A stretch of 59,123 nt of DNA. It comes from Gemmatimonadetes bacterium bin94. Its GTDB lineage: Bacteria; Gemmatimonadota; Gemmatimonadetes; Longimicrobiales; Gaopeijiaceae. A model generated the notes under the pieces. That model ran no database searches, had not been told where the DNA came from, and was given only the letters and a program-made list of their open reading frames with translations. The stretch's first letter is position 1, and each line of letters starts with the position of its first letter. Both the position numbers and the translations under genes were made by a program. The stretch is from positions 1 to 59,123 of the forward strand of contig MPNE01000026.1 of NCBI GenBank assembly GCA_002238865.1, written 5' to 3'. Below are positions 19,550 through 35,160 of the stretch, in pieces.

Positions 19550-22095
19550 ATGACCAGAATCGCCCCGGTACTCGCACTCGCGCTGGTCCTGGAAGTGGCC
19601 GTCGCCGCCGGGATTCAGTCGCCATCGGACTCGGACCGCTCCCTCGGGGCCGTCCACGGTTCCGTCATGCCCGGATCAGGCGACTCCGCCGACGATCTCG
19701 TGCAGCAATACTGCGTGCGCTGCCACAACGAGCGGCGGTTCCTTGGCAACCTCACTCTGGAGGAATTCGACCCGGCGAACCCGACCGCGAACGCGCCCGT
19801 CGCCGAGAAGATGATCCGCAAGCTCAGGGCGGGGATGATGCCGCCGCCGGGGGTCAGTCGTCCGCCTGAAGAGGAGGTCACCGCCTTCGTAGCCGCGATG
19901 GAGGAGACCATCGACGCGGCGGCCGCCGAGAACCCGAACCCCGGCGCCCGCACCTTCCAGCGCCTCAACCGCGCAGAATACGAGCGCGCGATCGATGACC
20001 TTCTGGGCCTCAAGATCGATGCGTCGGCCTACCTGCCGAACGAGACCGTGAGCGCGGGCTTCGACAACATCGCCGACGTGCAGAACCTGTCTCCCACCCT
20101 CCTCGAGGCCTATCTGACCGCGGCCAGCGAAGTCAGCCGCCTGGCCCTCGGCGACGCCAGCGCGACGCCCGCCGAAGCCACGTACGAGGTGTCGCGCTAC
20201 GCGGAGCAGCGCGAGCATGTGCCCGGGACTCCCTTCGGCACACGGGGCGGGATTTCGGTCATCCACAACTTCGTCGCCGACGGCGAGTACTACTTCCGGC
20301 TCGCATTTCAGCACGAGTCGACCGGCAACTTCTTTGGCCAGACGGCGCCTTTCGACGAGGAGATCGAGGTGTCGATCGACGGAGCCCGCATCGCGCTGAT
20401 CCCCCTCGACCGGTGGATGCACCGGCAGGATCCCGGCGGCGTCGAAGTTGTCACCGACCCCATTGCGGTCACCGCGGGGACGCACCGGGTGTCCGCGGCG
20501 TTCCTCAAGGTCACCGAGGGACCGGTCGAGGACCTGACATCGCCGCATGAGTGGTCGCTCGCCGACAAGAAGATCGGGTATTCGTACGGGATCACCGGGG
20601 TGCCGCACCTGCGCGATTTGACCATCGGGGGTCCCTACGACATCACGGGCGTGACACGGACCGCGGCCTGGGAGCGCGTGATGAACTGCCGGCCAGCCAC
20701 CCCGGCCGAAGAGCCGGCGTGCGCCCGCCAGATCATCGACCGGCTGGGTACGCGGGCCTTCCGCCGCCCCGTGACCGACTCTGAAGTGGATGGCCTGATG
20801 GGCCTCTTCGAGGAAGGCGCGAGGGAGGGGGGATTCGACATCGGGGTTCGGACCGCGCTGCAGGGTATCCTGGCTAGCCCGGACTTCGTCTTCCGCTTCG
20901 AGGTGCCGGCCGCGGGGTCGGCGGTCACCGGAGGACTCTCCCTCCTGAGCGACGCCGCTCTCGCGTCCCGCCTTTCGTTCTTCCTGTGGGGACGCCTGCC
21001 GGACGAGGAGCTGATCGAGGTCTCGGCCGCGGGTGCGCTTTCGGATCCCGGGACCTTCGACCGCCAGGTGGAGCGGATGTTGGCCGATCCCCGGTCCGAG
21101 GCGCTGGGCACGCGCTTTGCCTCGCAGTGGCTGCGTCTGCAGGATCTGGACAAGGTGCACCCCGACGCGCTTCGCTACCCGGACTTCTATCAGCAGCTCG
21201 CGCAGGACATGCGCCGCGAGACCGAGACCTTCTTCAACGTCCTCGTGCGGGAGGGCGGATCGCTCCAGGACTTCCTGACCGCCGACTTCTCGTACATGAA
21301 CCAGCGGCTGGCCCGGCACTACGGGATCCAGGGAGTGGCGGGAGACCACTTCCCCCCCGGCGACTACGCGAACCCCGAGCGGCGCGGCATCCTGGGACAC
21401 GGCCGCCGCCTCCCCCTCACCCCCCCCCCCCCACCCACCACTCCCGCCGCGTCGACTACGCGAACCCGGAGCGGCGCGGCATCCTGGGACACGGCAGCGT
21501 CCTCACTCTGACCTCGCACGCCAACCGCACCTCTCCCGTGCTCAGGGGCAAGTGGGTGATGGAAGTGCTGCTGGGGACCCCGCCCCCGCCCCCGCCTCCG
21601 GACGTGCCCGAACTGGACGCCATCGCCGAGGCGAGCGAGGGCCGCTTCCTCACGGTGCGCGAGCGGCTCGAACAGCACCGGGCGAACCCGTCGTGCAATT
21701 CGTGCCATCGCTTCATCGATCCCATCGGCCTGGCGCTGGAGAACTTCGACGTCACGGGGACCTGGCGGATACGGGACAGCGGAACACCCGTGGAGACGCT
21801 CGGCGAGCTGTACGACGGATCCGCCATCCACGGCCCCGACGACCTTCGCGCGGCGTTGCTTCGCCGGCCGGAGTCCCTTGTCCGCACATTCACGGAAAAC
21901 CTGATGGCCTACGCGCTGGGCCGCAGAATCGAGTACTACGACATGCCTGCGGTGCGCCGGGTGGCCAGGGCCGCTGGCCAGGAAGACTACCGTCTGTCGG
22001 CCTTCATCAAGGAGGTCACGCGCAGCGAACCCTTCCGCATGGCGAAGGCCGCCATTGTCGTGGAGGAACCGATGGGCGACGACGGCCGCAACTGA
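19550..22095 (+). CDS. DUF1592-type c-type cytochrome protein, copy 1 (frameshifted)
   Basis: Exported multidomain protein of unknown function. Domain order: signal peptide, planctomycete-type cytochrome c region with CVRCH (55-59), DUF1587 (FQRLNRAEY and onward), a beta-sandwich stretch, DUF1595, DUF1592 (SRLSFFLWGRLPDEEL), DUF1588 (NPERRGILGHG, then in the other frame SVLTLTSHANRTSPVLRG) and DUF1585 (FTENLMAYALGRRIEYYDMPAVRR). A CNSCH motif lies in DUF1588. The frame breaks at about 21405, where a 43-bp segment is repeated 92 bp downstream with C-rich filler between; deleting 92 bp would join both frames into about 817 aa, close to copy 2 (824 aa). First gene of the first DUF1592-DUF1552-ankyrin unit. 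Confidence 0.88.
21361..21495 (+). repeat. 43-bp direct repeat with C-rich 49-bp insert, frameshifting the DUF1592 gene
   Basis: Bases 21361-21403 and 21453-21495 match at 42 of 43 positions. Between them lie 49 bp that are mostly C. The offset is 92 bp (not a multiple of 3) and accounts exactly for the frame change. The intact paralogue at 25343-27817 has a single copy and no filler. Confidence 0.9.
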
Positions 22096-22109
22096 GGAGA
22101 ACGCACAGT

Positions 22110-23492
22110 ATGGAATACATCACCGGAGCGACGATCCCCCGCCGGACCTTCCTTCGCGGTCTCGGGGCGACAATCTCGCTGCCCTTCCTGGACGCCATGG
22201 TACCCGCGGGGAGGGCGTTGGGTGCCGCCGCGGACGGGCCCACAAGGCTTGTCGCCATCGAGATGGTGCACGGGGCCGCGGGCAGCAACGAGTGGGGCAG
22301 GACGCAGAACTACTGGTCGCCCGAGGGGGTGGGAAGGGACTTTGATCTGTCGCCGAGCGCCCTGAGCCCCCTGGAGCCCTATCGCAAGTACCTCACGATC
22401 ATCAGCGACACCGACATCGAGCCGGCGGAAGCCACCAAGCCGAAGGAGATCGGCGGGGACCACTTTCGATCGAGCGCCACCTTCCTCACCCAGTCGCACC
22501 CGCGGCAGACCGAGGGGTCGGACATCCACGTCGGCACGTCGCTCGACCAGATGTTTGCCCGGCGCTTCGGGCAGGACACGCCGATCCCGTCGATGCAGCT
22601 CTGCATCGAGAACGTCGACCAGTCCGGCGGCTGCGCCTATGGCTACGCCTGCGTCTACACCGACACGATCAGCTGGGCTTCACCCACGGATCCGCTGCCC
22701 ATGGTGCGTGACCCGCGCGTCGCCTTCGATCAGCTCTTCGGCGCGGGAGGGAGCCCCGAGGAGCGCGCGGCGCGGCGGCGCACAAACAAGAGCATTCTCG
22801 ACTTCATCACCGGCCGGGTGTCCCACCTCAAGCGTCAACTGGGACCCGCCGACCTTGTCCGCCTCGATCGCTACCTCGAGCATGTGCGGGAGCTGGAGCG
22901 CCGCATTCAGCGGGTCGAGGCCCAGAACACGAGCGGCGAGGGCCGTGAACTGCCCGAGGCGCCGGCCGGGGTGCCGGACGGATTCGAAGAGCACGTGAAG
23001 CTGATGTTCGACCTGCAGGCGCTGGCCTTCGCGTCGGATGTGACCCGGGTGTTTTCCTTCAAGATGGGCCGTGACTCGTCCGCGCGCGTCTTCCCCGGGA
23101 GCGGCGTCGACAAGCCCTTCCACCCCGCGTCGCACCACGGCGGCAACGAGGGCAACATCACCGACTTCGCCGCGATCAACCGCTACCATGTCGGCATGCT
23201 GCCCTACTTCCTCGAGCGTCTCGAGAGCACGATGGAAGGGGACGCGCACCTGCTTGATCGCACCATGATCATCTATGGGTCGCCGATGGGAGACCCCAAC
23301 ATCCACAATCACAAGCGCTGCCCGCTCTTCGTTGCCGGGGGCTCCAACGGCCGGATGGACGGCAATCTCCACCTGCGGGCGAACCCGGGCACGCCGATGG
23401 CGAACGTCATGCTGAGCCTGGCCCACAATCTCGGTATGGACGACATGGAGCGCTTCGGAAACAGCACGGCCGACTTCTCTCTGACGGTGTAG
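22110..23492 (+). CDS. DUF1552 domain-containing protein, copy 1
   Basis: Exported protein of unknown function found beside DUF1592 proteins in planctomycetes, acidobacteria and relatives. The N-terminus IPRRTFLRGLGATISLPFLDAM has a twin-Arg-like signal. Conserved stretches include EMVHGAAGS, HFRSSATFLTQSHP, VGTSLDQ, MGRDSS, FHPASHHGG and a final IYGSPMGDPNIHNHKRCPLFVAGG, which recalls the alkaline-phosphatase-like DUF1501 group; metal binding by these His/Asp residues is inference. 460 aa. The ATG is 14 bp after the DUF1592 stop and preceded by GAGGAG. Confidence 0.9.
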   Translation: MEYITGATIPRRTFLRGLGATISLPFLDAMVPAGRALGAAADGPTRLVAIEMVHGAAGSNEWGRTQNYWSPEGVGRDFDLSPSALSPLEPYRKYLTIISDTDIEPAEATKPKEIGGDHFRSSATFLTQSHPRQTEGSDIHVGTSLDQMFARRFGQDTPIPSMQLCIENVDQSGGCAYGYACVYTDTISWASPTDPLPMVRDPRVAFDQLFGAGGSPEERAARRRTNKSILDFITGRVSHLKRQLGPADLVRLDRYLEHVRELERRIQRVEAQNTSGEGRELPEAPAGVPDGFEEHVKLMFDLQALAFASDVTRVFSFKMGRDSSARVFPGSGVDKPFHPASHHGGNEGNITDFAAINRYHVGMLPYFLERLESTMEGDAHLLDRTMIIYGSPMGDPNIHNHKRCPLFVAGGSNGRMDGNLHLRANPGTPMANVMLSLAHNLGMDDMERFGNSTADFSLTV

Positions 23493-23496
23493 ACGG

Positions 23497-25317
23497 GTGG
23501 CGCGCATGAAAACGGCTGAACCGGCGAGGTGCAGGCCGTCGCGTACGGTTGGACGGCCTCTGTACGGCGTCGCCTGGCTGCCGATTCTCTTGCTGGCGCT
23601 GGCGCTGCCGGGCCCGCACGGGACCGATTCCCCCGTCGCCGACGCGGCCATGCAGGGGGACGCGGCGACCGTCCGCGCGCTGCTCGCCGACGGCGCCGAC
23701 GTCAACGAGGCTCAGGGAGACGGCATGACCGCACTGCACTGGGCCGCCCGCAACCGCGATGCGGCCCTGACGCAGACGCTGCGGGAAGCGGGAGCCGATG
23801 TCGCGGCGGGAACCCGGATCGGGCACTACACGCCGCTCCACCTGGCGAGCGAGGCCGGGTCGGGCGAGGTGGTCGAGGTGTTGCTCGGGGCGGGGGCGGA
23901 CCCGGTGGCGCGCGTCGTCGGAGCCGGGAATCCCACGCCGCTTCACTTCGCTGCCGCGGCGGGGAGTGCCCGCGCGGTGGACGCGCTGGTGGCCGCGGGG
24001 GCCGACGTGAACGCCACCGAGGAGGCGTGGGGGCAGACGCCCCTGGTCTTCGCCGCGTCGAAGGGGCGGACCGAGGCCGTTCGGGCCCTGCTGGCAGCCG
24101 GCGCGGATCCTTCCGTGCACACCAGGGTGGTCGACGTGGCCGCGCGTGCCGTCCTGGACCGGATCGAGCGTTCCGAGCGCAACCAGCGGATCCAGGCCGG
24201 GGAGCCGTGGGGGCCGGAGGTGGCCGCGGCCGTGCGGCGCGAGCAGGAAGAGGAGTCTCGCCAGGCGCGTGCCGAGGCCGTTTCGCGGCAGGAGTCCGAG
24301 ACCCGCATGATCGAGGAGCCCGAGCCGCTATCGTACGGTGAGCTGGTGGGCGGGCACGGCGGCCTCACCGCGCTCCTGCACGCCGCCCGTGAGGGCCACG
24401 CCGAGACGGCCCTCGCGCTGCTCGAAGCGGGCGCGGACATCAACCGGACTTCGGCCGGCGACGGCACCAGCCCCATGCTGATGGCCGTCATCAACGGCCA
24501 CTACGACCTGGCCATGCGCTTCCTGGAGCTGGGCGCCGACCCCAATCTCGTGAGCCATGCGGGCGCCACGCCCCTCTTCGCCGCCATCAACACGCACTGG
24601 GCGCCCAAGTCCCGGTACCCGCAACAGCACATCTACATGCAGCAGGACCACACCTACATGGAGGTCATGAGGAAGCTGCTCGACGCGGGTGCCGACCCCA
24701 ACCTGCGCCTGACGAGGCACCTCTGGTTCATGTCCTTCAACTTCGACCTCCTGCAGATCGACGCGAAGGGGGCGACCCCGTTCTGGCGTGCGGCCTACGC
24801 GCTCGACGTGGACGCCATGAAGTTGCTGGTTTCGTACGGCGCCGACCCGACGATCTCCACCGAGAAGGTGCCCGCGCGGCGCTTTGGGCGCGGTGGTGAC
24901 GAGCAGGTCGATCCGTCGGGACTCCCGCCCGTGCCCGTGGGCGGCGCGGCGGTGCACCCCATCCACGCGGCGTCCGGAGTCGGGTACGGCCAGGGCTTCG
25001 CGGGGAATGCGCACCGTCATGTCCCGGACGCGTGGATCCCGGCCGTACGCTACCTGGTCGAGGAGCTGGGTGCCGACGTGAACGCCCGCGACCACGACGG
25101 ATTCAGCCCCATGCATCACGCGGCCGCCCGGGGCGACAACCAACTCATCCTCTACCTGGTCGAACAGGGCGCGGATGTCACGCTTGTGAGCCGTCGCGGC
25201 CAGACGACGGTGGACATGGCGAACGGACCGGTTCAGCGCATTCAGCCCTTCCCCGAGACCGTCGCCCTGCTGGAGAGCCTGGGGGCCGTGAACAACCACA
25301 ACTGCGTGTCGTGCTGA
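23497..25317 (+). CDS. Exported ankyrin-repeat protein with CxxC tail, copy 1
   Basis: About 606 aa. A hydrophobic segment (about residues 26-42) acts as signal peptide or anchor, so the protein is exported, which is unusual for ankyrin proteins. Ankyrin repeats run from about residue 45 to 205, then a charged coiled linker (Glu/Arg/Gln-rich, about 220-275), then more repeats to the end. The C-terminus reads NNHNCVSC, a CxxC pair also kept in copy 2. GTG 23497 is the first start; ATG 23506 is equally likely. It starts 4 bp after the DUF1552 stop, so the three genes form one unit. Function unknown; the repeats suggest binding of a partner such as the neighbouring proteins. Confidence 0.87.
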   Translation: MARMKTAEPARCRPSRTVGRPLYGVAWLPILLLALALPGPHGTDSPVADAAMQGDAATVRALLADGADVNEAQGDGMTALHWAARNRDAALTQTLREAGADVAAGTRIGHYTPLHLASEAGSGEVVEVLLGAGADPVARVVGAGNPTPLHFAAAAGSARAVDALVAAGADVNATEEAWGQTPLVFAASKGRTEAVRALLAAGADPSVHTRVVDVAARAVLDRIERSERNQRIQAGEPWGPEVAAAVRREQEEESRQARAEAVSRQESETRMIEEPEPLSYGELVGGHGGLTALLHAAREGHAETALALLEAGADINRTSAGDGTSPMLMAVINGHYDLAMRFLELGADPNLVSHAGATPLFAAINTHWAPKSRYPQQHIYMQQDHTYMEVMRKLLDAGADPNLRLTRHLWFMSFNFDLLQIDAKGATPFWRAAYALDVDAMKLLVSYGADPTISTEKVPARRFGRGGDEQVDPSGLPPVPVGGAAVHPIHAASGVGYGQGFAGNAHRHVPDAWIPAVRYLVEELGADVNARDHDGFSPMHHAAARGDNQLILYLVEQGADVTLVSRRGQTTVDMANGPVQRIQPFPETVALLESLGAVNNHNCVSC

Positions 25318-25342
25318 TGGCACGCGCGACGTTGACGGGGCC

Positions 25343-27817
25343 ATGTTGAAACTCGCGGCCCCTCTCCTGGCCTCCGGCGCGGTGGTGGCCGGCCTGGGAG
25401 TGGCGGCTGCCACGGGCCCCGTGCCCGGCGCGGATCATCCGGGCCGGTACGACCTGGCGGCGTCGACCACCGACAACGAGATCATCGCGGAGTACTGTGT
25501 CCGCTGCCACAACGACCGCCGCCTCCTGGGCAACATGTCGCTGGAGCGGTTCGACGCGGCCGACGCGCCAGCCAACGCCGAGCAGGCCGAGCGCATGATC
25601 CGCAAGCTGCGCGCGGGGCTGATGCCGCCCGCCGGCAACCGCCGGCCGGGCGAAGAGACGCTCATCGGGCTCGCGGTTTCGCTCGAGGAGCAGCTGGACG
25701 CGGCCGCCGCGGCGAACCCCAATCCGGGCCGCCGCACCTTCCAGCGGCTGAACCGGGCCGAGTACCAGGCATCCATCCGCGATCTGCTGGACCTCGAGAT
25801 CGACGCGGGCGTCTACCTGCCCCTCGACACCAGGAGCGCCAACTTCGACAACATCGCCGACGCGCAGCTCCTCTCGGCCACGCTCACCGACGGGTACCTG
25901 CGGGCGGCGGCCGAGATCAGCCGGCTCGCCATCGGCGACCCTCACGTCACGCCCAGCGAGTCCACCTACCGGGTGTCGCGCTGGGACTCGCAGAGCGAAC
26001 GCGTCGAAGGCGCGCCCTACGGCACCCGGGGCGGCGTGTCGGTCCTGCACAACTTTCCCGCCGACGGCGACTATGCGTTCCGGGTCTCCTTCCACCACGA
26101 GACGACGGGCGCCCTGGTCGGGAACGGCCGCAATGCGCTCCACACCCGGGACGGAGAACCCGAGCTGGTGGAGATCTCGGTCGACGGGGAGCGGGTGGCG
26201 CTGCTCGAAGTCAACCGCTGGATGCACACGTCCGATCCCGACGGGGTGAACATCCGCTCCGAGCGCGTGTTCGTGCGCGCCGGGCCGCGCCGGGTCTCGG
26301 CGGCATTCATCCGCCGCTCCGAGGGGCCGCTGCAGGACCTCATCTCGCCGCACGACTGGTCGCTCGCCAGCACCAGCATCGCGGGATCGTACGGCTTCAC
26401 CGTTTTGCCCCACCTGAGGGATCTGGCGGTGGGAGGCCCTTACGACGCCTCCGGCGTGTCCGAGACGCCAAGCCGCGCGCGCATCTTCTCGTGCCGTCCG
26501 GACGATGGAGGATCGGACGCCGACGCTCGCCGCTGTGCCCGCGACATCATAGAGCGCATCGGCACGCAGGCGTACCGCCGTCCGCTCACCGACGACAATA
26601 TGATCGGCCTCATGGGCCTCTACGAAGCGGGTGCCGCGGATGAGGGATTCGAGGGCGGCGTGCGCATGGCCCTGGAGGGGATCCTGGCCAGTCCGCACTT
26701 CGTCTTCCGCTTCGAGGAGCCGTCGGGGAGCGGGGAAGGGGACGGCGCCTACCGGCTCGCCGACACGGACCTGGCCGCGCGGCTGTCCTTCTTCCTGTGG
26801 GGGACGTTGCCGGACGATGAGCTTTCGGAAGCGGCGCGCGAAGGGCGCCTGTCGGAGCCGGGCGGTATCGAGGCGCAGGTGTATCGGATGCTCCGGGACG
26901 AACGCGCCACCGCCCTCTCGACGCGGTTCGCCGCGCAGTGGCTGCGGATCCAGGACCTGGACAAGATCCAGCCGGACGTGCGCGTCGCACCCGACTTCGA
27001 CGAGCCCCTCAAGCGGGCCATGGTGGAGGAGACCGAGGCCTTCTTCGACAACCTGATCCGCGAAGACCGATCAGTCATGGAGCTTTTCACCTCCGACTAC
27101 ACCTTCGTCAACGAGCGCCTCGCCCGGCACTACGGGATTCCCGGGGTTGCGGGCGACCACTTCAGGCGGGTGAGCTACGTGAACCCCGAGCGGCGCGGTC
27201 TTCTGGGCCACGGGAGCATCCTCACCCTGACGTCCCACGCGGGGAGAACCTCACCCGTACTCAGGGGCAAATGGGTGATGGAGGTCATGCTCGGTACGCC
27301 GCCGCCGCCGCCCCCCCCCGACGTGCCGGAACTGGACGAGGAGGCGGTGGAAGACGGCCGCTTCCTCACGGTTCGCGAGCAGCTGGAAATGCACCGTGCG
27401 AGCCCCGCCTGCAATTCCTGCCACCGCATGATCGATCCCATCGGTCTCGCGCTGGAGAATTTCGACGTTTCGGGCGCGTGGCGGATCAAGGACCAGGGGA
27501 TGCCCATCGACGCGGCCAGCGACTTCTACGACGGGACCCCCATTTCGACCCCGTCGGAGTTGCGCGGCGCGCTCCTGAAGCGGCCCGAACCGCTGGTGCG
27601 CACCTTCACCGAAAACCTGATGGCATATGCGCTGGGGCGAAGACTGGAGTACTATGACATGCCGGCCGTGAGGCGCATCGCGCGCGACGCCCGGGCGCAG
27701 GACTACCGCTTGTCGGCGTTCGTTCTGGGCGTGGCGCGCAGCGACGCCTTCCGGATGCGGGCCGGTGCCCGCACGGTCGTGGACGAGGCGCAGGACCGAC
27801 ACGGAGGAGGCCAGTGA
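25343..27817 (+). CDS. DUF1592-type c-type cytochrome protein, copy 2 (intact)
   Basis: Intact paralogue of the 19.5-kb gene, 824 aa: short signal segment, CVRCH at 52-56, DUF1587 (FQRLNRAEYQASIRDLLDL), DUF1595, DUF1592 (RLSFFLWGTLPDDEL), DUF1588 (NPERRGLLGHGSILTLTSHAGRTSPV, then a Pro run and CNSCH) and DUF1585 (TENLMAYALGRRLEYYDMPAVRR). One heme per CxxCH is expected from family knowledge. It starts 25 bp after the first ankyrin gene and overlaps the second DUF1552 gene at its stop (GTGA). Confidence 0.92.
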   Translation: MLKLAAPLLASGAVVAGLGVAAATGPVPGADHPGRYDLAASTTDNEIIAEYCVRCHNDRRLLGNMSLERFDAADAPANAEQAERMIRKLRAGLMPPAGNRRPGEETLIGLAVSLEEQLDAAAAANPNPGRRTFQRLNRAEYQASIRDLLDLEIDAGVYLPLDTRSANFDNIADAQLLSATLTDGYLRAAAEISRLAIGDPHVTPSESTYRVSRWDSQSERVEGAPYGTRGGVSVLHNFPADGDYAFRVSFHHETTGALVGNGRNALHTRDGEPELVEISVDGERVALLEVNRWMHTSDPDGVNIRSERVFVRAGPRRVSAAFIRRSEGPLQDLISPHDWSLASTSIAGSYGFTVLPHLRDLAVGGPYDASGVSETPSRARIFSCRPDDGGSDADARRCARDIIERIGTQAYRRPLTDDNMIGLMGLYEAGAADEGFEGGVRMALEGILASPHFVFRFEEPSGSGEGDGAYRLADTDLAARLSFFLWGTLPDDELSEAAREGRLSEPGGIEAQVYRMLRDERATALSTRFAAQWLRIQDLDKIQPDVRVAPDFDEPLKRAMVEETEAFFDNLIREDRSVMELFTSDYTFVNERLARHYGIPGVAGDHFRRVSYVNPERRGLLGHGSILTLTSHAGRTSPVLRGKWVMEVMLGTPPPPPPPDVPELDEEAVEDGRFLTVREQLEMHRASPACNSCHRMIDPIGLALENFDVSGAWRIKDQGMPIDAASDFYDGTPISTPSELRGALLKRPEPLVRTFTENLMAYALGRRLEYYDMPAVRRIARDARAQDYRLSAFVLGVARSDAFRMRAGARTVVDEAQDRHGGGQ

Positions 27818-29208
27818 ACCTGATTACCGGCAGACACCTGCCCCGCAGAACGTTCCTGCGGGGACTGGGCGCGACGGTCGCGCTTCCATTCCTGGACGCC
27901 ATGATCCCGGCTCGGGAACTGTGGGCCGTCACCAGGTCGCGCACCGCCCTGGACCGCACCCGCCTCGTCGCCATCGAGATGGTGCACGGCGCTGCGGGGA
28001 GCAACCCGTGGGGCGCGAGCCAGCACCTGTGGTCGCCCCCCGAGACGGGGCGCGGCTTCGACTTCGGCCCCAGCGTGCTCGGTCAGCTGGAGTCCTACCG
28101 CGACTACCTCACGATCATCAGCGATACCGACGTGGAGGGCGCCGAGGCCACCAAGCCCAAGGAGATCGGCGGCGACCACTTCCGTTCGAGCGCCACCTTC
28201 CTGACCCAGTCGCACCCCAAGCAGACCGAGAGTTCGGACGTGCACGTCGGCACGTCGCTCGACCAGCTGTACGCGCAGCGCTTCGGCCAGGACACGCCCA
28301 TTCCGTCGATGCAGCTGTGCATCGAGAACGTGGACCAGGCGGGCGGGTGCGCCTACGGGTATGCGTGCGTCTACACCGACACGATTTCGTGGGCGGCGCC
28401 GGATCAGCCACTGCCGATGGTGCGTGACCCCAGGGTCGCCTTCGACCAGCTCTTCGGGGCCGGGGGAACTCCAGAGGCGCGCGCGGCCCGGCGGCGGGCC
28501 AGCGGCAGCGTCCTGGACTTCATCGTGGGCGAGGTGAAGGCGCTCCAGCGCGAGCTGGACTCCGAGGACACCCGCCGCCTTGACCGGTATCTGACCGATG
28601 TGCGCGAAATCGAACGGCGGATCGGACGGGTGGTGGCGCGCAACGAGAGCGGGGAGCAGCGGGAGCTTCCCGGCGCGCCCTCGGGTGTGCCCGATTCCTT
28701 CGACGAGCACGTCAAGCTCATGTTCGACCTGCAGGCGCTTGCGTTCGAGGCGGACGTGACCGGGATCTTCTCCTTCAAGATGGGCCGGGACGCTTCGGGT
28801 CGGGTGTACCCGGAGAGCGGGGTCGACAAGGGATTCCACCCCGCGTCCCACCACGGCGGCCAGCCCGCGAATGTGCTGGAGTTCGCCGAGATCAACCGGT
28901 ACCACGTCGGCATGCTGCCCTATTTCCTGGACAAGCTGGCCAGCATCCAGGAGGGTGACGGCACCCTCCTCGACAAGACGATGGTGATCTACGGCTCGCC
29001 GATGGGCGACTCCAACGTGCACAACCACAAGCGCTGTCCGCTGTTCGTGGTCGGTGGCGCGAACGGGCGCCTGGACGGCGACATGCACCTGCGGGCCGCG
29101 CCTGGAACTCCGATGGCGGACGTGATGCTCAGCCTGATGCACAAGCTTGGGATGGACGATGTCGAGAGCTTCGGCAACAGCCGGGGCGCGTTCGCGCTGG
29201 CACCATGA
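27814..29208 (+). CDS. DUF1552 domain-containing protein, copy 2
   Basis: 464 aa, clearly homologous to copy 1 along its whole length, with the same LPRRTFLRGLGATVALPFLDAM signal, EMVHGAAGS, HFRSSATFLTQSHPKQTE, PASHHGG and YGSPMGDSNVHNHKRCPLF stretches. GTG start overlaps the DUF1592 stop and its own stop overlaps the ankyrin start, so this second unit is fully coupled, unlike the first, which has small gaps. Confidence 0.92.
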   Translation: MNLITGRHLPRRTFLRGLGATVALPFLDAMIPARELWAVTRSRTALDRTRLVAIEMVHGAAGSNPWGASQHLWSPPETGRGFDFGPSVLGQLESYRDYLTIISDTDVEGAEATKPKEIGGDHFRSSATFLTQSHPKQTESSDVHVGTSLDQLYAQRFGQDTPIPSMQLCIENVDQAGGCAYGYACVYTDTISWAAPDQPLPMVRDPRVAFDQLFGAGGTPEARAARRRASGSVLDFIVGEVKALQRELDSEDTRRLDRYLTDVREIERRIGRVVARNESGEQRELPGAPSGVPDSFDEHVKLMFDLQALAFEADVTGIFSFKMGRDASGRVYPESGVDKGFHPASHHGGQPANVLEFAEINRYHVGMLPYFLDKLASIQEGDGTLLDKTMVIYGSPMGDSNVHNHKRCPLFVVGGANGRLDGDMHLRAAPGTPMADVMLSLMHKLGMDDVESFGNSRGAFALAP

Positions 29209-30986
29209 AGCCCGTGACCCTTCCCCTGCTGTTGGCGGCAGTGGTCGCCGGCGCCGCTTTTGCGCCGGGACCCGACGCTCCCGTCGCGGACGCCGCGATG
29301 CGGGGCGACGCGGAAGCCGTGCGGACGTTGCTGGCCGACGGCGCCGACGTGAACGCGGCGCACGGCGACGGGATGACCGGCCTGCACTGGGCGGCCCTGA
29401 ACGGAAACGCCGAGATCGCGTGGCTGCTCATCGGGGCGGGGACCGCGCTGGAAGCAGGGACGCGCCTGGGTGCGCACACGCCGCTGCACGTGGCCGCCCG
29501 CGCCGGTCACGGCGAGGTCGTGGAGATCCTCGCGGGCGCGGGCGCAAATACGGCGGCGCTCACCGAAACGGGGGCCGCGCCGCTTCACTTCGCCGCGTGG
29601 GCGGGTGACGTGCGCGCGGTGACCTCCCTGCTCGAACACGGTGCCCCGGTGGACGTGCGAGAGCCCGAGTGGGGGCAGACCCCGCTGATGTTCGCGGCGG
29701 CGCAGGGCCGCACCGAGGCTGTGGCGGCGCTGCTCGAAGCGGGAGCCGACGCGACCATCACCGCGCGGGTGATGGACCTCGTGGAGCGCGACATCGCGGA
29801 CCGCGAGTCGGAGCGCAAGCGCCGGGCCGAGATCGCGGCGTTGCGCGGGGGCACGGATGCGCAGACGTACCCGGTGGAGTCGGGGGTGGCGGGGGTGGTG
29901 GACCGCAACGCCGCGGCCGCGAGTCCGTCCCGGGAAACCCAGGCCAGGGACGCGGCCCAGGAGGCGATCGAGGCACAGCGCCGCACCGGGGAGCCGATCC
30001 CCCTCAACTACGCGGGCCTGATCGGCCAGCACGGTGGCCTGTCGGCGATCCACCTCGCGGCCCGGGAAGGGCAGGCCGCGACCGTCATGGCCCTCCTCGA
30101 CGGGGGCGTGGACATCGACTTCCCCAGCGCGGCGGACAACACCACGCCCATGCTGATGGCTGCGATCAACGGCTACTTCGACCTCGTGGCGGAGCTGCTC
30201 GCACTCGGGGCCGACCCGAACCTGGCCAGCGCCGCCGGGGCCACGCCCCTCTACGCGGTCCTGAACATGCACTGGGCGCCCAAGGCGCGGCATCCTCAGC
30301 CGCTCGAATACCAGCAGCAGGAGACCGGCTACCTGGAGCTGATGCGCGCGCTGCTCGACGCCGGCGCGGACGTGAATGCGCGCCTGAGCCGCACGCTCTG
30401 GTTCACTACCTACAACCGGGACCTGCTCGGCGTGGACCGGACCGGCGCCACCACGTTCTGGCGCGCGGCCCACGCGACCGACGTCCCCGCCATGAAGCTC
30501 CTTCTGGAGTACGGCGCGGACCCGAACCTGCCCACGATCAAGGTTCCGCGACGCAGCTTCGGGCGCCGCGACAACACCGACCACTCGGGCTTGCCGCCCG
30601 TCCCCGTTGGCGGTCCCGCCGTCTACCCCGTCCACGCGGCCGCCGGCGTCGGCTACGGCCAGGGCTTCGCGGGCAACTCGCACAGGCACGCGCCGGAGGG
30701 CTGGATGCCCACCATGCGATTCCTGGTGGAAGAACTCGGCGCCGACGTGAACGCGCGCGACCTCAACGGGTACAATGCCGTGCATCACGCGGCGGCCCGC
30801 GGCGACAACGAGATGATCCTGTACCTGGTGGAGATGGGCGCGGATGTCACGGCCGTCTCGCGGAGGGGCCAGACCACGGTGGACATGGCCAACGGACCCG
30901 TGCAGCGGATCCAGCCCTTCGTGGAGACGGTGGCGTTGCTCGAGCGGCTGGGCGCGAAGAACAATCATCGGTGCGTGAGCTGCTGA
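29205..30986 (+). CDS. Exported ankyrin-repeat protein with CxxC tail, copy 2
   Basis: 593 aa. Signal peptide at residues 1-22 (LPLLLAAVVAGAAFAPG), then ankyrin repeats (VADAAMRGDAEAV, DGMTGLHWAA), an Arg/Glu-rich linker near 190-265, and further repeats. The order of landmarks matches copy 1, including the HWAPK insert, the GYGQGFAGN(S/A)HRH segment, QTTVDMANGPVQRIQPF and the final NNHRCVSC. Copy 1 and copy 2 differ more than the two DUF1552 copies do. Convergent with the glutamate-synthase-like gene, 25 bp apart. Confidence 0.88.
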   Translation: MKPVTLPLLLAAVVAGAAFAPGPDAPVADAAMRGDAEAVRTLLADGADVNAAHGDGMTGLHWAALNGNAEIAWLLIGAGTALEAGTRLGAHTPLHVAARAGHGEVVEILAGAGANTAALTETGAAPLHFAAWAGDVRAVTSLLEHGAPVDVREPEWGQTPLMFAAAQGRTEAVAALLEAGADATITARVMDLVERDIADRESERKRRAEIAALRGGTDAQTYPVESGVAGVVDRNAAAASPSRETQARDAAQEAIEAQRRTGEPIPLNYAGLIGQHGGLSAIHLAAREGQAATVMALLDGGVDIDFPSAADNTTPMLMAAINGYFDLVAELLALGADPNLASAAGATPLYAVLNMHWAPKARHPQPLEYQQQETGYLELMRALLDAGADVNARLSRTLWFTTYNRDLLGVDRTGATTFWRAAHATDVPAMKLLLEYGADPNLPTIKVPRRSFGRRDNTDHSGLPPVPVGGPAVYPVHAAAGVGYGQGFAGNSHRHAPEGWMPTMRFLVEELGADVNARDLNGYNAVHHAAARGDNEMILYLVEMGADVTAVSRRGQTTVDMANGPVQRIQPFVETVALLERLGAKNNHRCVSC

Positions 30987-31011: not shown

Positions 31012-32676
31012 TCAGCTCCAGCCGACCAGCGGCCCCACCCCCGCGTACCGCACCCCCGCCAACTGTGCCATGTCGCGCTTCCACGTGGTGAGGTCGTCGA
31101 CGTTGAACCGGTTGAGGTGGTCGTGGCCGCAGGCGCGCGCGAGGATCTTCATCAGCTCGACGGTGGCGCCGAGGTAGTTGGCGAGCTGCCGGGCGGACTG
31201 GTCGATCACCAGCCGGGCACGCAGTCCCGGCTTCTGTGTGGCGATCCCCACGGGGCAGTTGTCCGTGTGGCAGGCGCGCATGCCCAGGCAGCCGATCGCC
31301 TGGATCGCCGAATTCGCGATGGCCACGCCGTCCGCGCCGAGCGCCATGGCCTTGACGAAGTCGGACTCGGTGCGGAGACCTCCGGTGATGATGAGCGTGA
31401 TCTCGCCGCTCGCGCCGCGCTGGTCCAGGTGGCGGCGCGCGCGGGCCAGGGCGGGGATGGTCGGGACGGAGATGTTGTTCTTGAAGATTTCGGGGGCTGC
31501 GCCGGTGGCGCCGCCGCGCCCGTCCAGGATGATGTAGTCCACCCCGATGTCCAGGGCGAAGTCGATGTCGTCTTCGATGTGCTGGGCCGACATCTTGAAG
31601 CCGATGGGGATGCCGCCGGTGCGTTCGCGAACCTCGTCGGCCACGCCGCGAAAGTCGTCCGGGGTGACCAGGTCCGGGAACCTTGACGGGCTGATCGCCG
31701 ACGTGCCGGGCTCGAGGCCGCGCACCTGGGCGATCCTGGCCACAACCTTGGTGCCGGGAAGGTGCCCGCCGGTGCCGGTCTTGGCTCCCTGTCCCCCCTT
31801 GAAGTGGAACGCCTGCGACCGGCACGCCTTGTCCATGGACCACCCGAACCTGGCCGACGCCAGCTCGTAGAAGTAGCGGGAGTTGTTCTCCTGCTCCTCC
31901 GGCAACATGCCGCCCTCGCCCGAGCAGATGCCGGTCCCCGCCATCTCGGCGCCCATGGACAGCGCCACCTTGGCTTCTTCGCTGAGGGCGCCGAAGCTCA
32001 TGTCGCTCACGAAGAGGGGGATCTTCAGGCGGAGCGGCCGCCTGGCTTTCGGGCCGACAACGAGCTCCGTGCCCACCGGGTCGTCGTCGGCCAGAGGGCG
32101 GGTGGCGAGCTGGCCGGTCAGAATCTGAATGTCGGCCCAGGCGGGAAGTTCCGTGAGCGGCACGCCCATCGCGGAGACCGCACCGTGATGGCCGAGCTTC
32201 TCCAGCCCGTTCCTGGCGAGCTCCTGGATATAGTGATTGTGGGGCTCCTCGGGGGTGCCGTGGACGTCGGCGTACAGGCCCAGGTACTCGTCGCGCTGGT
32301 ATGCCTGCGGGAACCTGTCGTGCCAAGCCGCCACCTCGGCTTCGTCCACGAGGACCGCGTCCGCCCCGGCGTCGATCCACGCGCCGAACTTGTGCAGCGC
32401 TTCCTCGGGGTTGTAGGAGCTGACGCCGGTGTCGAAGCGGTAGTCCCAGTTGTGGACGCCACAGATCAGGTCGTCGCCCCGGATGTGCCCGTCGGCGAGG
32501 AGGGCGCCCCGGTGGAGGCAGCGACCGTAGAGCACCGACACCCGGTCGTCGTAGCGGATGACGACAAGGTCGACGTTGGCCACAAGAGCGTAGGCGGGGC
32601 GGCGGTCTTCGAGTTCGCTCCAGGTGGCGACCTTGACCGCTTTGGCGGCGTTCGCTGCTACGGTTTGCGGGTTCAT
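31012..32676 (-). CDS. Rieske-domain / FMN-binding glutamate synthase-like fusion
   Basis: 554 aa. Residues about 15-95 form a Rieske [2Fe-2S] domain with C53-L-H55 and C72-G-V-H75. Residues about 170-520 are a GltB-type FMN barrel (Glu_synthase domain) with GEGG, KGGQGAKTGTGGHLPG, DGRGGATGA and GGLRTESDF, and Cys463, Cys469 and Cys474 positioned for the [3Fe-4S] cluster. The glutaminase domain of true GltB is missing, so it may be an archaeal-type glutamate synthase or another FMN oxidoreductase; the Rieske domain implies an electron donor different from NADPH-GltD. ATG at 32676. Promoter-like and dyad sequences lie upstream. Confidence 0.88.
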   Translation of the reverse strand: MNPQTVAANAAKAVKVATWSELEDRRPAYALVANVDLVVIRYDDRVSVLYGRCLHRGALLADGHIRGDDLICGVHNWDYRFDTGVSSYNPEEALHKFGAWIDAGADAVLVDEAEVAAWHDRFPQAYQRDEYLGLYADVHGTPEEPHNHYIQELARNGLEKLGHHGAVSAMGVPLTELPAWADIQILTGQLATRPLADDDPVGTELVVGPKARRPLRLKIPLFVSDMSFGALSEEAKVALSMGAEMAGTGICSGEGGMLPEEQENNSRYFYELASARFGWSMDKACRSQAFHFKGGQGAKTGTGGHLPGTKVVARIAQVRGLEPGTSAISPSRFPDLVTPDDFRGVADEVRERTGGIPIGFKMSAQHIEDDIDFALDIGVDYIILDGRGGATGAAPEIFKNNISVPTIPALARARRHLDQRGASGEITLIITGGLRTESDFVKAMALGADGVAIANSAIQAIGCLGMRACHTDNCPVGIATQKPGLRARLVIDQSARQLANYLGATVELMKILARACGHDHLNRFNVDDLTTWKRDMAQLAGVRYAGVGPLVGWS

Positions 32677-32860: not shown

Positions 32861-33003
32861 ATTGACAGAATCCCGTCACCGGTCCAACACTGGTCCGAGT
32901 GCAACTGCCCGCAACATTGTGCATTGGAGCGACCTTACCGTACCGGCGCGCGCACAAATCACGTCCTGGCCACCCCCGATCACCCGGTTCCGGAGTCCCG
33001 ACC

Positions 33004-35160
33004 TTGATCCAGCCACGCGCGCGACGCGGCCTGACCTCACTCGCCGTCTTCGCCCCGATCCCGGCCCTCCTGACGGCGTGTGCGCTGCGGGATTCGGCCC
33101 TCGGCGACCCGTGCAGGAATCCCGCGAACGAGATCGTTGCCGAGAACTGCCTCGCGGGGCATCCGGCCACGGAGTGGGACATCAACGGATACGGCGACCC
33201 CGGCATCCAGGGCTTCGGTACCGACATCGCGATCGCGCAGGGGGAGTCCATCGACTTCAAGGTCGACACGGACTCCGACGACTACAGGATCGACATCTAC
33301 CGCATGGGCTACTACGGGGGGATGGGGGCGCGCCGTGTGGATTCGTTCGAGCCTTCCGCCGCGCTGCCTCAGTCGCAGCCGGATTGCTTGCGCGCACCGA
33401 TCCCGGTGCTGGCCGAGGGAGGAGGGCTCGATACCTGGCCCGCGCCGCTTGTGGACTGCGGCAACTGGGCGGTATCGGCGTCGTGGCGGGCGCCGGCGGA
33501 CGCCACCTCGGGCATCTACTTCGCCCGGCTGGTACGCGAGGATCCGGTAGAGGGGTGGATGAAGAACGACATGTTCGACCCGACACCGCTTCCGCCGACG
33601 GGACGGGACTCCCTGTGGGAGGCGGAGGGTTTCAGGGCGGTGATGGTCAACGCGCTCCGCGAGCCTCGCGCCAGCCACGTCTATTTTGTCGTTCGGGACG
33701 ACGACGGCGAGTCCGACCTGATCTTCCAGACGTCGGACCTGACCTGGCAGGCGTACAACCGGTACGGCGGACACAGCGTGTACGGACGGCTCCACCCGGA
33801 GGGCCTTCGGCTTCACGCCGGAGAACCGCGCGCGCCGAAGGTCAGCTACAACCGGCCCTTCGAGACGCGGCACTACCGCGCGGTGAACATGCCCTTCAAC
33901 TCCGAATACCCGATGGTGCGCTGGCTTGAGCGGAACGGCTACGACGTCAGCTATTCGTCGGGAGTCGACACCGACCGGCGGGGCGGCGAGCTGTTCGAGC
34001 ACAAGGTCTTTCTCTCGGTTGGACACGACGAGTACTGGAGCGGCAGGCAGCGGCGCAACGTCGAGGCGGCGCGGGCGGCCGGGGTGCACCTCGCCTTCTT
34101 CAGCTCGAACGAGGTCTACTGGAAGGTGCGCTGGGAGGTGAGCGTCGACGGTTCGGGCCGGCCCTACCGGACCCTCGTCGTGTACAAGGACTCACAGGAT
34201 CACAGGCGGCTGGACCCGGTCGAGTGGACTGGAGAGTTCCGCGACCACCGCGCGATCAACGCGGAGGGCCCGTGGCCAGAGAATGCGCTGACCGGGACGC
34301 TGTTCACGGTGAACGCCTGGCGCAACGACCCGATCATCGTCGACGCCGAGTTCGCCGGCCTGCGCTTCTGGCGCCACACCGAGGTGGCGCAGTTGCTGCC
34401 GGGTGAGCGCTACGTGTCGATCAAGGGGATCCTGGGGCACGAATGGGATTCGGACATCGACAACGGCTTTCGGCCGCCGGGGCTCTTCCGGGTGGCGGCG
34501 AGCACCTTCGACAACACGCTGTACTGCGTGCATCCGGGTCGGGGTTGCGAGCCGGGCACGGCCACGCACCACGCTGTGCTCTACCGGCACGAGAGCGGGG
34601 CGCTGGTGTTCGGCGCGGGGACGCTGCAGTGGTCCTGGGGACTCGACCCGCACCACGACACCGAGACGGGGGTGCCGCCCGAGCGCCAGAACACCTTTGA
34701 TACACGCGTGGGGGTGGACCCGCACGGACCGGACCGGGTGCTGCAGCAGGCGACGGTGAACCTGTTTGCGGACATGGGAGTGCAGCCGACGACGCTGGAA
34801 GCGGGATTGGTGGCTGCCACGGCGTCGACGGACGAGGTCGCACCGGTGTCGTCGATCGACGGGCGGTCCGCGGCGGACGCGGATGGCGTGGTCACGGTTA
34901 CCGGGACGGCTTCGGACGGGGGTGGCGGAGTGGTCGCAGCAGTCGAAGTGTCGGTGGACGGCGGGGCGAGTTGGCACCCGGCACGCGGTCGGGAGACGTG
35001 GTACTACTCGTGGCAGCCTGATCCGGGAACGAACGAGGTCTCGATCATGGTCCGCGCGGTGGACGACAGCGGCAATCTGGAGCCGGTCGGAGAGGCGGTG
35101 TCGGTGGAGATCCAGCTCGCCGCCCAGGTTGACGGCGCGTACGTTCCAGGGGATTTGTAG
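33004..35160 (+). CDS. Lipoprotein related to N,N-dimethylformamidase beta subunit (DMFA2-like C-terminal domain)
   Basis: 718 aa from TTG 33004, chosen because GGAG lies 8 bp upstream and the product then starts with a proper lipoprotein signal (RARR, hydrophobic core, LLTAC with Cys26); GTG 32899 is in frame but gives no signal peptide at the end. Landmarks are DINGYGDPGIQGFGTD, RIDIYRMGYYGG, QTSDLTWQAYNRYGGHSVYG, KVSYNRPF, VGHDEYWS and FFSSNEVYWKVRWE, the pattern of the DMFA2 group. Residues about 630-705 form an Ig-like domain. No alpha subunit gene is nearby, so amidase activity on dimethylformamide is not implied; substrate unknown. Confidence 0.82.
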   Translation: MIQPRARRGLTSLAVFAPIPALLTACALRDSALGDPCRNPANEIVAENCLAGHPATEWDINGYGDPGIQGFGTDIAIAQGESIDFKVDTDSDDYRIDIYRMGYYGGMGARRVDSFEPSAALPQSQPDCLRAPIPVLAEGGGLDTWPAPLVDCGNWAVSASWRAPADATSGIYFARLVREDPVEGWMKNDMFDPTPLPPTGRDSLWEAEGFRAVMVNALREPRASHVYFVVRDDDGESDLIFQTSDLTWQAYNRYGGHSVYGRLHPEGLRLHAGEPRAPKVSYNRPFETRHYRAVNMPFNSEYPMVRWLERNGYDVSYSSGVDTDRRGGELFEHKVFLSVGHDEYWSGRQRRNVEAARAAGVHLAFFSSNEVYWKVRWEVSVDGSGRPYRTLVVYKDSQDHRRLDPVEWTGEFRDHRAINAEGPWPENALTGTLFTVNAWRNDPIIVDAEFAGLRFWRHTEVAQLLPGERYVSIKGILGHEWDSDIDNGFRPPGLFRVAASTFDNTLYCVHPGRGCEPGTATHHAVLYRHESGALVFGAGTLQWSWGLDPHHDTETGVPPERQNTFDTRVGVDPHGPDRVLQQATVNLFADMGVQPTTLEAGLVAATASTDEVAPVSSIDGRSAADADGVVTVTGTASDGGGGVVAAVEVSVDGGASWHPARGRETWYYSWQPDPGTNEVSIMVRAVDDSGNLEPVGEAVSVEIQLAAQVDGAYVPGDL

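Follow-up and report, generated by a model that had tools for sequence, protein, structure and literature searches.

Organization of the locus

The window analyzed in this study is a whole contig of 59 kb, one of the 83 that make up the 4.42 Mb host genome. Between positions 19550 and 30986 it carries two adjacent units on the + strand, each encoding a DUF1592-type cytochrome, a DUF1552 protein and an ankyrin protein in this order (Table 1). The shared gene order proposed in the first-pass annotation is borne out by Pfam analysis, which finds in both units the PSD3/PSD5/PSD4/PSCyt3/PSD2 architecture of DUF1592, the HXXSHH domain of DUF1552 and ankyrin repeats. The genes of unit 1 are separated by 14 and 4 bp and the two units by 25 bp; in unit 2 the stop and start codons overlap (ATGA at 27814-27817 and at 29205-29208). 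With spacing this tight (14, 4, 25, -4 and -4 bp) all six genes may form one operon; scans for promoters and terminators gave nothing informative. The fixed stoichiometry that had been read from the stop/start overlaps is not supported in relatives, where the spacing between DUF1552 and ankyrin genes ranges from -8 to +344 bp.

Table 1. Features of the two adjacent units, with positions in the window
Feature	Position	Strand	Description
Unit 1 DUF1592-type cytochrome	19550..22095	+	Frameshifted in the assembly, with PSD3-PSD5-PSD4 in frame 19550-21511 and PSCyt3-PSD2 in another frame to 22095; Sec-type signal; CVRCH and CNSCH heme motifs
Site of C-rich insertion of ~92 bp	21347..21512	+	Insertion holds an imperfect second copy of neighboring sequence; shifts the frame of unit 1 DUF1592
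Unit 1 DUF1552 (HXXSHH)	22110..23492	+	Tat-type RRTFLRG signal
Unit 1 exported ankyrin protein	23497..25317	+	C-terminal end NNHNCVSC
Unit 2 DUF1592-type cytochrome	25343..27817	+	Intact; CVRCH (aa 52-56) and CNSCH (aa 690-694)
Unit 2 DUF1552 (HXXSHH)	27814..29208	+	Alkaline-phosphatase/sulfatase superfamily fold, predicted from the model of a paralogue
Unit 2 exported ankyrin protein	29205..30986	+	C-terminal end NNHRCVSC
Ankyrin C-terminal region	30579..30983	+	Insert GVGYGxGFAGNxHRHxPxxW and CxSC tail; diagnostic, used as the family profile

The unit 2 cytochrome contains all five domains and two CxxCH motifs. In unit 1 the same five domains are split by the frameshift, and the gene is not one intact open reading frame here. 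The insertion is missing in the matching orthologues, which are otherwise collinear, and it is likely to be an assembly artefact or to mark a recent pseudogene. Convergent with unit 2 lies a gene (31012-32676, - strand) whose product combines a Rieske [2Fe-2S] domain at its N-terminus with a glutamate-synthase FMN domain, followed at 32899-35160 (+ strand) by one for a large protein that matches the C-terminal domain of the N,N-dimethylformamidase beta-subunit.

Domain composition and predicted folds

The proposal that DUF1592 is a heme protein is supported by its sequence motifs: each of the four intact copies in the genome carries two CxxCH motifs, whose Cys and His columns are invariant across 30 proteins; the N-terminus has a Sec-like signal. 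In a Foldseek comparison that scarcely covered its helical and heme-binding parts, the DUF1592 model showed a weak likeness to CBM36/35 sandwich domains (CBM36-like match 7ay3, TMt 0.63, rmsd 9.1); with the linked model described below, Foldseek returned nothing at E<=0.001. Searches of solved-structure sequences with the DUF1592 and DUF1552 profiles gave nothing useful.

The two DUF1552 proteins match Pfam PF07586 (HXXSHH) with 284 and 273 bits against a gathering cut-off of 30. They open with a Tat-like RRTFLRG motif, and with a lenient E-value 19 of the 32 members match TAT_signal. The guess of an alkaline-phosphatase-like fold is substantiated by the predicted structure: residues 735-1165 of linked model m08f50e5579f1, a predicted rather than a solved structure, align with sulfatases including 2qzu (Z 15.7, rmsd 4.8, 292 residues aligned), and share their fold with the superfamily members choline sulfatase 6fny and LtaS 4uor. 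This model places DUF1552 in the alkaline-phosphatase/sulfatase superfamily at the level of predicted fold, although identity to sulfatases is only ~9-11% in the best matches. Glu, His and Asp residues are conserved in the DUF1552 sequences, among them a His-rich set (H342, H346, H347, H403 and H425 in unit 2), but there is no recognisable CxPSR motif of the sulfatases. DUF1501 was considered as a possible link to the alkaline-phosphatase clan, but is too rare in the relatives to be of use.

The ankyrin proteins carry two conserved features outside their repeats. Two cysteines stand at the extreme C-terminus in all 58 complete triads, mostly as NNHxCVSC, and a His/Trp insert (GVGYG..GFAGN.HRH.P..W) is likewise conserved in the family. 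The AlphaFold model of the ankyrin protein is very confident apart from the last residues, which form an unstructured tail. Weak matches of the ankyrins to type IV effectors in NCBIfam all fell far below the cut-off and are due to the repeats alone, and this identity was rejected. A second, minor ankyrin subtype also follows DUF1552, in 12 of 83 Gemmatimonadota DUF1552-ankyrin pairs; here the profile match ends before the CxSC tail (for example G057:C135 and G056:C1:3404783).

Linked-chain AlphaFold predictions, built on only 8-11 paired rows, gave no confident interface (pTM 0.62 for DUF1592 with DUF1552 and 0.60 for DUF1552 with the ankyrin protein). The linked chains derive from host-genome paralogues in which neighboring genes share a frame, with the intervening stop read as glycine, and are not natural proteins. 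Alternatively, the ankyrin protein may have no part in maturation and be purely a passive scaffold or anchor that holds the cytochrome and DUF1552 at the envelope or binds a substrate polymer. Ankyrin repeats are protein-binding folds, those of this protein are modeled with high confidence, and the sandwich likeness in DUF1592, weak as the match is, hints at a polymeric substrate. Against this, the strictly conserved residues of the His/Trp insert and the CxSC tail exceed the needs of a scaffold, and the models show no confident contact between the proteins; we regard a passive role as rather unlikely.

Conservation of the triad in Gemmatimonadota

All five DUF1552 genes of the host genome lie inside a DUF1592-DUF1552-ankyrin triad. 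Searching public genomes with the profile of the ankyrin C-terminal region identified at least 493 relatives, and at the best loci all 58 complete triads have the same order of genes. Because these loci were located via the ankyrin gene, the count was repeated starting from DUF1552: an ankyrin gene lies downstream, on the same strand, of 83 of the 88 DUF1552 genes in 22 Gemmatimonadota genomes, which supports the first-pass annotation in taking the ankyrin protein as the regular third partner. These counts greatly exceed what chance would give. Four ankyrins were unmatched, three of them with a contig end near. The co-occurrence of the families is complete among 61 Gemmatimonadota genomes, where DUF1552 and the ankyrin are found together in the same 22 and neither is present in the other 39. 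No other gene family recurs beside the triads, whose flanks consist of further triads, antisense ORFs and orthologous neighborhoods, and neither a substrate nor a neighboring gene points to a pathway for the module.

Two loci deserve separate mention. At L135:4061-8817, and at the orthologous loci of G057 and G059, genes for an NHL-propeller protein and an ankyrin protein lie downstream of a Gemmatimonadota DUF1592-DUF1552 pair, in place of the direct triad. Contig L063 (JAPPJO010000015.1) comes from a metagenome-assembled genome labeled as Gammaproteobacteria; its DUF1552 genes closely match those of the surveyed Gemmatimonadota genome G043 in score and length, and it is probably mislabeled.

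History of the two units

In a tree of DUF1552 proteins, each unit groups with its counterparts: unit 1 with the unit-1 copies found in the genus, unit 2 with other unit-2 copies. Sequences from Acidobacteriota and Palauibacter are closer to unit 2, and Acidobacteriota sequences branch off between the units (97/88 support). The tandem duplication described at this locus thus holds as regards adjacency, the units lying side by side and the pair being kept across the genus, but a recent origin does not, since the units belong to different clades; judged from their sequences they are two old paralogues. Identity between the units is 74% for DUF1552, 60% for the ankyrin protein and, for DUF1592, 54% over the first three quarters and 73% over the C-terminal part, such that the ankyrin protein does not stand out clearly as the most diverged member. 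The three proteins have diverged in parallel (correlation of pairwise divergences, r 0.93-0.95), as is expected of units inherited whole by shared descent.

Triads and looser arrangements in other bacteria

Our survey covered Gemmatimonadota and Acidobacteriota genomes, with Planctomycetota represented by one Planctomyces plasmid. The association with an ankyrin gene reaches beyond the lineage of the host: it is found in Acidobacteriota and on a Novosphingobium plasmid, which carries a DUF1592-DUF1552-ankyrin triad. Within the Acidobacteriota class to which genome G066 belongs, the ankyrin gene lies downstream of 61 of the 68 DUF1552 genes that are of the same subtype. A second, more generic DUF1552 subtype (~36-43% identical) often adjoins an ankyrin gene that may lie upstream, downstream or divergent, and the ankyrins inspected at rearranged loci have signal-like N-termini. 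The number of DUF1552 paralogues in Acidobacteriota genomes is high, with 43 in G066 and 37 in G082. Among the matches listed for G066, 31 of the 43 DUF1552 genes lie no more than 5 kb from an ankyrin gene.

That such adjacency is a matter of genomic hitch-hiking, with common ankyrin genes merely inherited beside their neighbors, could be argued from the shared descent of the units and the recurrence of the same loci in related genomes. However, among the matches listed, 32 of the 36 strongest ankyrin genes in G066 lie within 5 kb of DUF1552 where 7% would be expected, and 23 of 28 do so in G082, with an incomplete list of DUF1552 genes, against an expected 7-8%; the p-values are indicative, as they take genes to be independent, which paralogues are not. 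DUF1552 and ankyrin genes take four relative orientations in these two genomes, and the presence/absence match across the 61 Gemmatimonadota genomes is perfect; hitch-hiking is already disfavored by these observations and we consider it very improbable. The first-pass annotation had tied its idea of a complex to a constant gene order in close relatives. Order does vary in distant relatives, but the ankyrin gene is still adjacent, and this adjacency, kept through rearrangement, argues for a functional link.

Some DUF1592-DUF1552 pairs occur with no ankyrin gene nearby. Some of them are singletons; on Sphingobium plasmids, genes for either cytochrome c' plus cytochrome b or a glyoxalase-like protein come after the pair, and on the Planctomyces plasmid a gene for DUF1080 (3-keto-disaccharide hydrolase) does. 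The linkage to DUF1080 was seen once, beside the Planctomyces pair, and was dropped as not general. A link to tomatine was also set aside: a distant pair is present on Sphingobium plasmids that degrade tomatine, but DUF domains are not mentioned in the paper on that degradation.

Discussion

Our study reports an apparently undescribed third partner of a gene pair that was already known. PSCyt3 genes have been noted in Verrucomicrobia to lie usually beside a family of unknown genes, with no function on record for them according to the same paper (PMC5615132). In Planctomycetota and Verrucomicrobiota, PSCyt3 (DUF1588)/DUF1592 genes encode the same multi-domain cytochrome as that found here, but an ankyrin protein is not mentioned in that work, whereas in the genomes studied here the pair almost always has an exported ankyrin as its third member. 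The pair is thus known and the ankyrin partner appears to be new in the literature searched, although other papers may differ. That the three proteins form a functional module is very likely in view of the adjacency that persists through rearrangement, the perfect presence/absence match and the export-type signals that each of them carries.

The closest parallels are the catalase-ankyrin pairs AnkB/KatB of Pseudomonas, Cj1386/KatA of Campylobacter and LIMLP_10150/KatE of Leptospira, in which the ankyrin is reported to promote enzyme activity or heme loading, AnkB being periplasmic (PMC10294975, PMC7567364). In common with these, an exported ankyrin protein is encoded beside a heme enzyme; unlike them, the partner is a c-type cytochrome together with a sulfatase-fold protein, and a specific insert and a CxSC tail mark the ankyrin. 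As the heme partner is DUF1592/PSCyt3 and not a catalase, the module may work like a catalase-ankyrin pair but is not one. A peroxide- or oxidant-handling role, in which a di-heme peroxidase-like system has an ankyrin accessory as in the catalase-ankyrin operons, would accord with the two c-heme motifs, the ankyrin partner and the induction of ankyrin-catalase operons by H2O2 (PMC7567364). It would leave the Tat-exported sulfatase-fold partner and the 37-43 paralogues per genome unexplained, and Pfam shows no resemblance of the triad proteins to peroxidases or catalases; we find this role improbable.

Our analysis suggests instead a model, to which we give an even chance, in which an exported di-heme cytochrome, an enzyme of the sulfatase superfold and a dedicated ankyrin accessory make up one module that acts in the manner of the catalase-ankyrin partners. 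The DUF1592/PSCyt3 cytochrome would probably bind the substrate and carry electrons, the Tat-exported DUF1552 protein would carry out metal-dependent chemistry, and the Sec-exported ankyrin protein, by analogy with the catalase ankyrins, may be a factor dedicated to assembling the module, loading its cofactor or docking it. Our data show the co-occurrence and adjacency of the genes, their domain composition, the export-type signals, the heme motifs and the predicted fold of DUF1552; from these we infer that the three proteins act together, that electrons are transferred, that DUF1552 uses a metal and what the ankyrin does. Oxidation is a plausible activity, given the hemes and the cytochrome b and c neighbors on the Sphingobium plasmids, and the paralogous modules of one genome probably serve different substrates. 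It is speculative that the CxSC tail could be a thiol or metal arm. An extended form of the model, in which the chemistry of an exported sulfatase-fold metalloenzyme of a hitherto undescribed, redox-coupled class is coupled to the di-heme cytochrome, the flexible C-terminal CxSC tail acts as a thiol or metal/heme-transfer arm that matures the two CxxCH sites, and dozens of paralogues are specialized for their substrates, is one that we consider unlikely.

The 43 and 37 DUF1552 genes per Acidobacteriota genome represent an extreme expansion, like that of substrate-diversified systems. DUF1592/PSCyt3 and DUF1552 have many members in several bacterial phyla and are functionally blank; the near-obligate ankyrin protein with its CxSC tail and the predicted sulfatase-like fold of DUF1552 now provide handles on them, in the form of proteins to co-express and residues to mutate. 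Ankyrin accessories may thus serve exported heme enzymes more widely than the catalases.
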